Positions 20,514 through 33,371 of a stretch of 42,584 bases of DNA are shown here, piece after piece (within the stretch, counting starts at the first letter, position 1; each line of letters starts with the position of its first letter). The notes beneath the pieces were generated by a model. That model was not told where the DNA came from. It did no database searches and was given only the letters and a program-made list of their open reading frames with translations. Made by a program: the position numbers and the translations under genes. Source of the stretch: Clostridia bacterium (GTDB lineage: Bacteria; Bacillota; Clostridia; Oscillospirales; Acutalibacteraceae); assembly GCA_017517135.1 (NCBI GenBank), contig JAFXAK010000037.1:1-42584 (forward strand). Direction: 5' to 3'.

Positions 20514-21677
20514 ATGAAATACCGTGAGGACAAATACGGAAATCGGTTGTCTGTTTTAGGCTTCGGATGTATGCGCTTTAAGAAGAAAATGGGCAGAATT
20601 GAATTCGAGAAAGCTGAAAAACAGATAATGACCGCTTTTAATAAGGGTGTCAATTATTTTGACACAGCATTCATATATCCCGGAAGCGAAGCCGCAATAG
20701 GTGAAATCTTTGAAAAGAACAATATCCGCGATAAGGTTTTTATTGCAACAAAGCTTCCGCCTCAGCTTATGCGCAGTACCGAAATTCTCGATAAGCTTTT
20801 TAATGAGCAGTTAAAAAGACTGAGAACCGACCATATTGATTTTTATCTTATGCATATGATGGCAGATATAAAGGTATGGGAACGCTTAAAGAGTATCGGT
20901 ATTGAAAAGTGGATAGAGGATAAAAAGAAAAGCGGAGAAATCCGTCAGGTCGGATTTTCATATCACGGCAATTCTGATATGTTCTGTAAAATAGTTGATG
21001 CTTATGACTGGGATATGTGTCTTATACAGTATAACTATATGGATGAGCATACTCAGGCAGGCAGAAAGGGCTTAATGCACGCTCACAAAAAGGGTATACC
21101 TGTTATGATTATGGAGCCGCTCAGAGGAGGCAGACTTGTAAATAATCTCCCCGCTGAGGCAAAGCAGATTTTCTCTGAGCACCCCGTACAGCATACCCCT
21201 GCACAGTGGGCATTCAGATGGTTATATAATCAGCCCGAGGTTTCCGTTGTGCTTTCGGGTATGAATTCCGAGGAAATGGTGGAGGATAATATAAAAACCG
21301 CATCCGAAACCGAAATCGGAGAGCTTACCGTTAATGATGAAGAGATGCTTAAAAGAGTTGTAAAGGCTATCAACGCAAAATTAAAGGTCGGCTGTACTGG
21401 CTGCGGCTACTGTATGCCCTGTCCGCAGAATATTAATATCAGCGGTACATTCTCAGCCTATAACCGTCATTTCTCCGACAGTAGCTTCAAAGGCTTTACC
21501 GAGTATGTCAAGGCTACCAATAAATTTGCACCTGCTTCAGCGTGTATAGGCTGCGGAAAATGCGAACAGCACTGTCCGCAGAGTATTGAAATAAGAAAAC
21601 AGCTTCAAGAAGCCGCAAAAGTCCTTGAAACTCCTGCATACAAGGCAGTAAGCAAGGTGTTCACAAAGAAAAAGTAA
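20514..21677 (+). CDS. Aldo/keto reductase with C-terminal [4Fe-4S] domain
   Basis: The N-terminal barrel has the AKR catalytic set D50, Y55, K80 and H114 (NYFDTAFIYPGSE, FIATKLPP, YLMHMM). The C-terminal domain has two cysteine clusters, CTGCGYCMPCP (C294, C297, C300, C303) and CIGCGKCEQHCP (C344, C347, C350, C354), for one or two iron-sulfur clusters. Such fusions are common in anaerobes and are thought to couple NAD(P)H to ferredoxin-type electron transfer. The substrate is unknown. The ATG follows GGGGAGG. Only 28 bp separate it from the next gene with no terminator between, so the two are probably co-transcribed. Confidence 0.9.
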   Translation: MKYREDKYGNRLSVLGFGCMRFKKKMGRIEFEKAEKQIMTAFNKGVNYFDTAFIYPGSEAAIGEIFEKNNIRDKVFIATKLPPQLMRSTEILDKLFNEQLKRLRTDHIDFYLMHMMADIKVWERLKSIGIEKWIEDKKKSGEIRQVGFSYHGNSDMFCKIVDAYDWDMCLIQYNYMDEHTQAGRKGLMHAHKKGIPVMIMEPLRGGRLVNNLPAEAKQIFSEHPVQHTPAQWAFRWLYNQPEVSVVLSGMNSEEMVEDNIKTASETEIGELTVNDEEMLKRVVKAINAKLKVGCTGCGYCMPCPQNINISGTFSAYNRHFSDSSFKGFTEYVKATNKFAPASACIGCGKCEQHCPQSIEIRKQLQEAAKVLETPAYKAVSKVFTKKK

Positions 21678-21705: not shown

Positions 21706-23223
21706 GTGAATATAAATGCTTTCAGAAAAACAGGAATAGATCTATCCCATCTGGGCTTCAATATGAACGGAGAGTTTGAATATTATTACTGCACACCGAA
21801 AAATGCTGAAATTATTGCGTCATCAGGTGTTGACGGTATACATTTTTGTACTGTAAAGCAATTTGGTGAAATGATATTTGCCGTAAGTCCTATGAATCTT
21901 GGGGACTGTGTGCATCTCATTGCCCGAAGCTTTGAGGATTTGCTCAGATTACTGTTACATTGCTCGGATGTTGCCGCTTTGGAGCAGTGCTATGCCTGGG
22001 ATGAGGAGCAATACAAAGCTTTTCTTACAGATTGTCCGCCAACTCAAAAACAGCAGGCAGTTTCAGATGAAATCAAGAGCAAATTCGGACTTGAACCGAT
22101 ATGTGATTCTTTTGCGTATGTAAAGGAATTACAGGCTGAATTTGATTTGTCGCAGATAGAGTATACCGAAGATTATTATGACACGGATATGAATCCTGCT
22201 GCTCCCGAGGTGCAGACAGAATGGAAGGTATACTTTGACGGCGGATATTGGACTAAAAACGCCAAAGGTGAACCGGGTGAAGAAATAACCTTGAACAAGA
22301 GCTTTTCCTGGGGCGATGAAGTATGGCATATTCCTGCTGTTTATTCCTACCCAAAAGGTCTGGTTGTTGATTTCTGTATTGAAATTGACCCTCAGAAAGA
22401 AAAGGCATTTTTTGATAAGTGGTATCGAGTTCTTTCAAAGGATGAAAATATCAGTAAAGAACTGCGTGAACGAATTGAGCAGGAAAACCCGATGGATGTA
22501 AATTTTACAGCTCATTTGCAAGTCAACTCAAAGCCTGTTATTGCAAAATACGGCAGTTCGGTCAATTGGATTCCTGAAGGATGTCTGCCCGACGGGGAAA
22601 GGGGTGTAAGCGAATCAAAAGAAATTATTAAGCATTACGGTCTGGACAAAACACGCGCCTGGGTTTTTTACAGACTTTCCTGTCCTTGGGCAACAAAAAG
22701 AAAGCATGAAATCAAATCTATAAAGCTGAAATTGGAACGCCAACCTACCGCGATTCAGGGTATTCATTTTAAGAATCCTGCAGTCGGGGATGAAATTTCT
22801 TTTGTGCATCCCGTTCACAAAACCGAGCACAAATTAACAGTTCTTGCTTATGAAAAACAGGAGTTTTCGGCTAAAGGATTTCAGCACGAGGAATACGAAT
22901 TTCCCACTTGTCACACGGCTATGACCTATACGTTAGAGCCCGAGTTGCCCGTAAGAAATTATCAGGTGCGCGATTGTGAACAAAACGAACAGCCGAAGCG
23001 CAGACCGAAGAAAAATTATGAGCCGAAGTCGGAATATGATGCTTGCTGTATAGGCATTATCGGCGGCGCAGACGGCCCGACAGCCATTTTTGCTTCAGTC
23101 GGACAGAACATAGAGCAACACACAGCTTTATCTGCCTTACGATTTGAGTATACGGACGATATTGAATGGAAAATAGTTTTCCGTGAAAAATTGATGGAAG
23201 ATATTGAAACAGAATTATTGTAA
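21706..23223 (+). CDS. Unrecognised 505-residue protein with a GIIGGADGPTAIF signature
   Basis: No known family covers the whole protein. Residues about 40-110 (IHFCTVKQFGEMIFAVSP..., then ARSFEDLLRLLLHCSDVAALEQ) vaguely recall SUKH/SMI1-KNR4 domains. That is a weak impression. The middle is rich in aromatic residues and contains repeated beta-like segments. A basic linker (QPKRRPKKNYEPK) precedes CCIGIIGGADGPTAIFASVGQ at about 447-467. The stretch GIIGGADGPTAIF (450-462) is the signature of Na+-translocating decarboxylase beta subunits, membrane proteins, yet here it sits in a soluble context with no membrane helices. The GTG start follows AAGGAGAT. The gene follows the Fe-S aldo/keto reductase and is closed by a terminator. 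Confidence 0.75.
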   Translation: MNINAFRKTGIDLSHLGFNMNGEFEYYYCTPKNAEIIASSGVDGIHFCTVKQFGEMIFAVSPMNLGDCVHLIARSFEDLLRLLLHCSDVAALEQCYAWDEEQYKAFLTDCPPTQKQQAVSDEIKSKFGLEPICDSFAYVKELQAEFDLSQIEYTEDYYDTDMNPAAPEVQTEWKVYFDGGYWTKNAKGEPGEEITLNKSFSWGDEVWHIPAVYSYPKGLVVDFCIEIDPQKEKAFFDKWYRVLSKDENISKELRERIEQENPMDVNFTAHLQVNSKPVIAKYGSSVNWIPEGCLPDGERGVSESKEIIKHYGLDKTRAWVFYRLSCPWATKRKHEIKSIKLKLERQPTAIQGIHFKNPAVGDEISFVHPVHKTEHKLTVLAYEKQEFSAKGFQHEEYEFPTCHTAMTYTLEPELPVRNYQVRDCEQNEQPKRRPKKNYEPKSEYDACCIGIIGGADGPTAIFASVGQNIEQHTALSALRFEYTDDIEWKIVFREKLMEDIETELL

Positions 23224-31886: not shown

Positions 31887-33371
31887 ATGGACAGAATTTC
31901 TCAGTTTGTTGATTCATTTATACCGAAAAATCTTCCTAAAGAAAGAAAACAAATGCTCAGATATGAGCTTGAAGACCATATTTTTGAAAAAACCGCATTT
32001 TATGAGGAAATAGGCTATACCCGAGAGCAAAGCATTGAAAAGGCTATAGAGGAATTCGGAGAAGGTGAGGAAATGAAAAAGCATATTTTCAATGAATTTG
32101 AAGAGCTTTATGCCGAAAGAGATATTTTCGGAGTGTTTGCCTTTATAATAATTGCTTTTATGAATTATCTGTGCTGGCCGCTTGATACATGGGTAACATC
32201 GGCAGACTTTAACAGAGATCCTGATGTTTTCGGTACTGCAGTAAGTCTTGGAATGATTTTTGTTGTGCTTGCAATGATTGTTTTTGCAAGGATAAAAAAA
32301 TACCGCAAGATGCTTTTTGCTATAGGCTTTGCGAACATACTTGTTGCAGTCTGCGTTTTAGTCAGCTTCTATCCTCAGATGGCGGCATATGCCATGACAT
32401 ATAATTTTATTTATCTTGTTGATAACTACACTCCATTTTTGCTCGGAAATCTGATTGCTAATGCATATGAAGGCTTTTTAATCGGTGTTTTATGGTTTGG
32501 CTCTCTGCTGATTCCTGCAATATATGCTGTTGTTATGTCTTTCCTGTTAAAAAAGGGCAAGGCAAAGGCTGTGAAAAATCCGAAGAAAAAAGCAGCACTT
32601 TTCTGTTCAGTGTATCTCTCAATTGCCGTTGTGAGCTGTATTTTACAGCCTGTGGGACAGCAGTATGCCGATGATTATCCCGTGTGGTTTTCTCCGTACA
32701 CACTTTATATTTCCGAAATGCCCGAGGAAATATTTTCAAAGCTGTATCCGGGAATGAGTGAAGAGAGTGCCAACGAGGTGCTTTATTCTTACGGCTATCA
32801 GAATCTGGAGGACTACAGAGCCTCTCTTGATTGGGTTGCAAAAAAGCAGTTTGATGCGAATGTAAAAGAATTTGATTTTCTTGACGGCTACACAATATGG
32901 TTCCTGCCCGATGTATACATACCGGGAGAAGGCTTTGTTGGTGTTAAATCCGAAAACGGCACGGTAACGGGCGTGGGTATAGGAAATCTCAACAACAGAA
33001 TGTATGACGCAGATGATTATAATTCCTTCGGTTACTCGGAAATAGAATTCAATCACGATATTGAAGCAATGACAGAAAGCTTCAGAGCATTGCAAAAGGG
33101 TGCAGATGAAGCCGATGTAATAAACATTTTTACTCAGCTTCACGGGCAGATATATGCCAAGCGTTTATATATTGAAAACGGAGAAGCAGTAAGCTATTAC
33201 CGCATTTATTTTTACGGTGTGGTAAATCCCGAAATGAAGCATTATTTAGATAAATATGACTCAAGGTATATTGAGCTTACCTTCAAGGGCGGTAATCTTA
33301 TAAAGGGAAATCTTTATTCAGAAAGAAATCAGGACGGGGAAAGCATTGTTTCGGTTGAGTATGTAAAATAA
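31887..33371 (+). CDS. HAAS/permease-prefix domain membrane protein
   Basis: Residues about 1-75 form the cytoplasmic helical prefix domain often found with PadR (LPKERKQMLRYELEDHIFEKTAFYEEIGYTREQSIEKAIEEFG). Five or so membrane helices follow (about 80-260). The remaining 230 residues are extracytoplasmic, with two segments resembling small BamE-like units (LYPGMSEESANEVLYSYGYQNL and LQKGADEADVINIFTQLHG). The ATG follows GGAGGTG and lies 34 bp after padR, in the same operon. HAAS-PadR pairs are thought to transmit envelope signals, but the output here is unknown. Confidence 0.84.
   Translation: MDRISQFVDSFIPKNLPKERKQMLRYELEDHIFEKTAFYEEIGYTREQSIEKAIEEFGEGEEMKKHIFNEFEELYAERDIFGVFAFIIIAFMNYLCWPLDTWVTSADFNRDPDVFGTAVSLGMIFVVLAMIVFARIKKYRKMLFAIGFANILVAVCVLVSFYPQMAAYAMTYNFIYLVDNYTPFLLGNLIANAYEGFLIGVLWFGSLLIPAIYAVVMSFLLKKGKAKAVKNPKKKAALFCSVYLSIAVVSCILQPVGQQYADDYPVWFSPYTLYISEMPEEIFSKLYPGMSEESANEVLYSYGYQNLEDYRASLDWVAKKQFDANVKEFDFLDGYTIWFLPDVYIPGEGFVGVKSENGTVTGVGIGNLNNRMYDADDYNSFGYSEIEFNHDIEAMTESFRALQKGADEADVINIFTQLHGQIYAKRLYIENGEAVSYYRIYFYGVVNPEMKHYLDKYDSRYIELTFKGGNLIKGNLYSERNQDGESIVSVEYVK

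Follow-up and report, generated by a model that had tools for sequence, protein, structure and literature searches.

A peptide resembling hairpin H1 of the Na+-decarboxylase beta subunit OadB is conserved on many unrelated proteins of pump-bearing Clostridia

INTRODUCTION

LPXTG and PEP-CTERM are sorting or attachment tags that lie beside a transmembrane (TM) helix and a basic tail and place one peptide on many exported proteins. Short linear docking motifs are short, conserved, and located in disordered regions of unrelated proteins. Here, we compare with these two kinds of element a peptide that resembles hairpin H1 of OadB, the beta subunit of Na+ decarboxylases (PF03977, TIGR01109; OadB, GcdB, and MmdB).

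According to PMC7274780, Asp203 at the tip of H1 is thought to help in Na+ binding inside the protein, the Na+ site of the pump also requires Ser382 of a second hairpin, and the H1 tip is buried in OadB. The DNA analyzed here, referred to as the window, is a whole stretch of 42,584 nucleotides from a Clostridia bacterium (contig JAFXAK010000037.1). It encodes a protein without the OadB fold that bears the H1-like peptide (Table 1). We report that this peptide is conserved and transplantable, that it occurs on many unrelated carrier proteins, and that it is associated with the pump across genomes.

RESULTS

A soluble protein displays an H1-like peptide in a disordered loop

The carrier protein (family label P0001; relatives of the window protein are called P0001-like) contains GIIGGADGPTAIF at residues 450-462 of 505, and hydropathy analysis gave no membrane helices, both as the earlier note had described. 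The CC pair and basic linker that it reported before the motif are also present (residues 447-448, with I449 next and QPKRRPKK upstream). Residues 452-459 read IGGADGPT and correspond to the H1 tip with a counterpart of Asp203. In Pfam and NCBIfam profile scans of the carrier, we found no family apart from the motif: Pfam OAD_beta matched residues 444-466 only (E 5.9e-5; 22.7 bits versus a gathering threshold of 31.6), and TIGR01109 scored 20.7 bits versus a cut-off of 190.6. Conversely, the profile of the carrier family found OadB (6iva) at 445-476 with an E of 0.0014. The stretch of the module that matches H1 comprises about 20 residues, (A/S)SIGIIGGADGPTAI(F/Y). Module carriers are without the remainder of the beta subunit, and, whereas OadB has about 10 membrane helices, the window carrier has none by hydropathy. 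Because only the hairpin is common to the two and the gene is full length in relatives, we rejected the possibility that the carrier is an OadB pseudogene or fusion remnant.

An AlphaFold2 (AF2) model of the carrier based on 18 sequences is of the mixed alpha/beta type (mean pLDDT 81.6, pTM 0.56) and places the motif in a disordered loop flanked by strands 419-423 and 471-475, which argues against the segment being part of an ordinary fold. The N-terminal domain, with a pLDDT of about 80-94 and a pairwise identity of 0.765 over residues 20-165 (16 long sequences), is one that we take to resemble SUKH/SMI1-type domains, a likeness for which there was no Pfam match. A shorter motif-bearing family (L152, L157, L180, and also L053) consists of the C-terminal half only and is homologous to the carrier family, as documented by hhalign (E 1.4e-29 over residues 172-477). 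Searches with the carrier model in Foldseek against PDB and BFVD gave no match at E<=0.001. PHROGs gave none for P0001 and one weak match (E 0.021) for the protein of L218, a second soluble carrier.

Table 1. Features of the carrier locus, in window coordinates
Feature	Coordinates	Strand	Description
Fe-S aldo/keto reductase	20514..21677	+	adjoins carrier gene; outside the system
Carrier gene	21706..23223	+	505-aa protein, GTG start, no predicted membrane helices
N-terminal domain, best conserved part	21706..22200	+	aa 1-165
C-terminal, mainly beta region	22213..23220	+	aa 170-505
Disordered loop displaying motif	23014..23106	+	aa 437-467, pLDDT <50
GIIGGADGPTAIF module	23053..23091	+	aa 450-462; like OadB hairpin H1 with Asp203 tip

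The peptide is conserved while its flanks change

We identified 19 homologous loci on genome contigs, mostly of gut Clostridia MAGs by title, with best segments 40-78% identical to the carrier. The motif or a close variant (e.g., AIIGGADGPT, ALIGGADGPT, GIIGGEDGPT, or GLIGGADGPV) is present in 18/18 loci that cover the site, L012 being excluded as it ends before the motif; loss of the motif from close homologues was thus not observed. The alignment comprises the window protein and 17 loci, of which 16 cover the site; it omits L017, whose score equals that of L016, and L019, which is frameshifted; both of these bear the motif. Mean pairwise identity, calculated over 16 long sequences including the window protein, is 0.955 for the core IGGADGPT, 0.77 for the whole module (residues 449-463), and 0.587 for the whole protein; identity in the flanks is 0.408 over the 24 residues before the module and 0.322 over the 9 residues after it. 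Core codons differ synonymously among relatives. These data show that the module in the carrier family is under selection at the protein level in a flexible segment. A near-invariant peptide in disordered, fast-changing flanks resembles a short linear motif, and it is in the window family that this combination was found. We note that two P0001-like proteins (L313 and L314) have GGAHGP in place of GGADGP; the Asp of the pump is therefore dispensable for the module.

The CC pair is not conserved in relatives (CA, CV, CS, VV, AA, and others), and cleavage near CC, which the earlier note suggested looking for, is therefore unlikely. The coupling to an Fe-S reductase that the earlier note described is real in the window, where the reductase gene lies 28 bp upstream of the carrier gene; however, none of the 19 homologous loci gave a match to the reductase, although upstream DNA is short in some of them, and the neighbor genes tested are not kept beside the carrier gene in these loci. 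Because it is local and not conserved, we rejected linkage to the reductase. Elsewhere in the window, the product of 31887-33371 has, by eye, a start like a HAAS/permease-prefix domain and is without the motif; permease-prefix-type proteins at other loci (L145 and L148) bear it.

The peptide recurs on unrelated, mostly exported proteins

We searched genomes with a degenerate DNA pattern for [IVM]GGxDGPT, using the reversed pattern as a control. The pattern matched in 45/60 genomes (own genome included) and in 266/393 Clostridia genomes; the control matched in 0/60 and 5/393. Based on this control and the conservation in the family, chance was rejected. Among the matches listed, the loci that we read were mostly true OadB for single matches and mostly the motif elsewhere for extra matches. 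Three copies are present in the own genome: one in OadB (contig C19), one in the window protein (C36), and one (C1) in an XRE-type HTH protein, between its two TM helices.

A heuristic tally of 94 entries was reduced by hand by 6 (5 OadB and 1 chance) to 88 carriers. By a rough classification in which L168, a TM-motif-TM fragment, counts as a lipoprotein, the motif lies between TM helices in 27, follows an N-terminal signal or TM in 23, and precedes a TM in 7, while 17 are lipoproteins and 14 have no detected signal. L197 in the last class is apparently a lipoprotein truncated by the end of the locus; the remaining 13 are soluble, have no export signal, and belong to two families, P0001-like (10) and L109/L218/L219 (3). 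The P0001 family looks cytosolic, whereas most other carriers are exported. Of the 34 carriers whose motif lies between TM helices or before one, 32 (all except L215 and L358) were assessed by counting K/R residues; the counts placed the motif outside in 27 and inside in 4, with 1 tied. With 9 carriers added later, 97 non-OadB carriers were read. After masking of the motif, blastp at E<=1e-3 grouped them into 44 clusters, of which 31 had a single member; because short membrane proteins cluster poorly, the number of unrelated kinds is at most 44.

The kinds of carriers include lipoproteins, TM-motif-TM miniproteins, HTH-TM regulators, a transporter loop, tandem repeats, and the two soluble families. 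Rhodanese, HTH_3, and permease-prefix proteins were identified as hosts by profile, and further hosts are presumably an M56-type peptidase, a substrate-binding protein, an SLH protein, amine-oxidase-like proteins, and a transporter. This diversity supports the idea, already put forward in the earlier note, of a mobile peptide that occurs as a module apart from the decarboxylase fold. A stand-alone C-terminal module, as envisaged there, is not the general case: N-terminal, central, C-terminal, inter-TM, and tandem forms were found, and some carriers have two or three tandem copies. Four small proteins (L120, L195, L363, and L364) have three tandem copies of the IIGGADGPTQIYTE type behind one N-terminal hydrophobic segment, with a spacing of 26 residues in L120. 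Rhodanese lipoproteins bear the module at four loci (L132, L185, L204, and L209), and it is absent from 17/17 rhodanese homologues (the subset of 30 loci passing a filter), indicating that it is optional there. In a scan of ten carriers, short matches took two above the Pfam threshold of 31.6, with 41.8 bits for a TM-motif-TM miniprotein and 60.3 bits for a protein with three copies; none came close to the TIGR01109 cut-off. An AF2 model of a 97-aa TM-motif-TM miniprotein has long helices and a motif loop with a pLDDT of about 50-60, and gave no evidence of a re-entrant hairpin.

Carriers were also found in 7/11 stretches from viral contigs (L214, L215, and L218-L222). The IMG/VR records L218-L221 contain soluble proteins of one family, about 220 aa long, that bear the motif close to their start (SIIGGADGPTSIFIAGK), and L222 has a relative of P0001. 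Four other viral-contig matches (L213, L216, L217, and L223) were excluded as probable chance frames, and L118, L199, L046, and L142 (which we take to be DXS) were dropped before the counts as chance. A tblastn search with a 22-aa consensus against plasmids and phages gave no matches, possibly as a result of low-complexity masking.

The module is OadB-like beyond the search pattern

We compared 69 module copies (65 proteins, 56 genomes) with 164 OadB motifs. Positions that the pattern did not force are OadB-like (I/V at -3 in 79% and at -1 in 88%), as are positions past the core (I/V at +9 in 93% and F/Y at +10 in 68%). The second OadB signature, GxAG[VI]SAxPM, had 85 matches in 55/56 module genomes, and the match closest to any carrier was about 18 kb off (G135). 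Many of these matches lie 534-546 nt from an OadB motif that we read; others (e.g., of the GISAFPM type), read in part, fit OadB paralogues. The own genome has one match, in the oadB gene on C19, and none on C36 with the carrier. Because this signature never occurs near a carrier, reuse seems to be specific to H1 among OadB segments.

At 811 identical residues, codon identity between module and own oadB is 0.419 versus 0.37 expected on the basis of codon usage, and the 69 copies represent 64 distinct 24-nt cores. As codons mostly differ and the cores are so varied, few copies can be recent, and a DNA-level mobile element or recent copying is unsupported. The module is slightly closer to the OadB of its own genome than to others (0.594 versus 0.528; 0/2000 permutations), a difference confounded by phylogeny. 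In G151, module and own pump have IIGAADGPTS in common; in G081, G133, and G154, the variants of module and own pump differ. We note that the GG pattern misses an OadB subgroup (L285-L290, L373, and L301) whose H1 tip reads IIGAADGPT, or MIGSSDGPT in L301.

The module goes with a genuine OadB except in one draft genome

Two families were surveyed in full, and these unselected sets gave the clearest comparisons. In the G233 family (109 genomes), modules were present in 16/37 genomes with OadB versus 0/72 without (exact p 2e-9, species as units). With genera as units (13 OadB genera of 35, 4 module genera), p was about 0.014 as calculated by hand. Given the difference between the two levels, the association is partly phylogenetic. 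Among the OadB-negative genomes of this family, weak matches in five genomes were read and were empty, and those in a sixth (G788) lay outside the motif. In the G081 family (11 genomes), modules were present in 1/2 OadB-positive versus 0/9 OadB-negative genomes.

OadB was found in 80/80 single-match genomes examined, about 19 more such genomes among the 393 being outside this count. Six of the 80 bear a further module (L310-L315), mostly missed by the exact pattern, and three more have degenerate module forms. A pattern-negative sample consisted of 79 genomes without a pattern match and G081. OadB was present in 9, of which 4 (G081, G133, G151, and G154) had modules, and modules were present in 0/71 OadB-negative genomes, a figure that is weak alone because the selection of the sample excludes exact-pattern modules beforehand. 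Among pattern-positive genomes, OadB was present in 79/80. The exception, G320, is a draft (91% complete, 260 contigs) with two modules in which OadB was not found; five other genomes of its genus have OadB. Finally, 51 genomes have a rhodanese homologue; the module was present in 0/28 of those without OadB and in one (G465) of the 23 with OadB. In total, modules were present in 1 (G320) of about 168 distinct OadB-negative genomes after overlaps. Thus, the module goes with a real OadB in the genomes examined, G320 excepted. This near restriction to OadB-bearing genomes was unforeseen by the earlier note.

DISCUSSION

We tentatively propose that the module is a transplantable short linear motif with the sequence of OadB H1 that may be a tag for docking or recognition, its reader being the pump or a pump-linked factor. 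We infer the partner and the tag function from the conservation of the peptide and its association with OadB. Carriers would display the H1-like peptide in a flexible segment; the reader of this peptide would be either the pump or a factor whose existence depends on it; and the Na+-pump machinery could in this way recruit, or be regulated together with, lipoproteins at the cell surface, sensors, small membrane proteins, and a soluble protein. Several observations count against such a tag: the H1 tip is buried in OadB (PMC7274780), many OadB-positive genomes are without the module, module and own-pump variants differ in three genomes, L313 and L314 have GGAHGP, the loop of the miniprotein model is of low confidence, and P0001 looks cytosolic when most carriers are exported. 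A broader version, in which the pump hairpin serves in many Clostridia as an internal address code on dozens of surface and cytosolic proteins, is recognized either by the pump or by a dedicated reader, and ties regulators, transporters, and lipoproteins to the sodium-energy machinery, is speculative, and we regard it as unlikely in this full form.

The association with OadB could also arise through shared sodium physiology if the module were a loop that responds weakly to Na+ and is part of sensors and transporters at the cell surface. The contribution of Asp203 to Na+ binding in the pump (PMC7274780) fits this explanation, as does the extracytoplasmic appearance of many carriers, including HTH-TM proteins and a transporter loop. 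However, the Asp is replaced by His in L313 and L314, the pump site also needs Ser382 of the second hairpin, and the motif is mostly hydrophobic and conserved past the Asp, making a Na+ loop rather improbable. We assign a similarly low likelihood to the idea that fragments of oadB were occasionally copied and serve as linkers only, so that OadB is merely their source. The strong conservation within disordered flanks, the mostly different codons with 64 distinct cores among 69 copies, the failure to see modules without OadB except in G320, and the second OadB signature never being reused all argue against it, even though the OadB-like sequence extends over about 20 residues and both the similarity to the own-genome OadB (phylogeny-confounded) and the codon identity with own oadB are slightly elevated.

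Carriers might instead be decoys that absorb a toxin, bacteriocin, or phage factor attacking H1 of OadB. Such a role would need the pump to be present and would suit the varied surface display, the tandem copies in L120, L195, L363, and L364, and the carriers in viral contigs; yet the H1 tip is buried in OadB, rhodanese and substrate-binding carriers are unlike immunity proteins, and PADLOC gave no match to a known defence family for P0001 or the L218 protein. We consider decoys improbable. Still less probable is a processed or secreted peptide signal released from the carriers: many carriers are exported with a juxtamembrane motif, but we saw no conserved cleavage context, the position of the motif varies among carriers, and soluble carriers have no export signal. 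The GP of the module loosely resembles the end of the SecM arrest peptide. A translation-arrest or insertion-timing peptide is nevertheless highly improbable, as conservation runs past the Pro to positions +9 and +10 and one protein bears three tandem copies.

Returning to the pump-linked tag, partial Pfam and NCBIfam matches would make many such carriers look like decarboxylase fragments. If the module is a tag, Clostridia would have a hidden recognition system tied to their sodium bioenergetics, and the motif would be a sequence handle for finding the reader. In the literature searched, which had most subscription journals and all bioRxiv preprints outside its scope, there was no "ggadgpt" text and no such module, and the papers naming PF03977 concern, by their listing, transporter evolution.

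In the broad sense, a short linear motif is a known kind of thing. We know of no counterpart in which the ion-binding hairpin of an ion pump is reused on unrelated proteins of pump-bearing genomes. Like LPXTG and PEP-CTERM tags, the module is a single peptide shared by many exported proteins that are otherwise unrelated, and it frequently adjoins a TM helix and a basic tail. Unlike them, it has no set position, extends to lipoproteins and soluble proteins, can lie between TM helices or be repeated in tandem, and is associated with a pump; with no TM in the window protein and a position that varies across carriers, it does not have the features of a sortase-type C-terminal sorting signal. With docking motifs of disordered regions, the module shares its shortness, its conservation in a disordered loop, and its unrelated carriers; it differs from them in copying the ion-binding hairpin of a pump.
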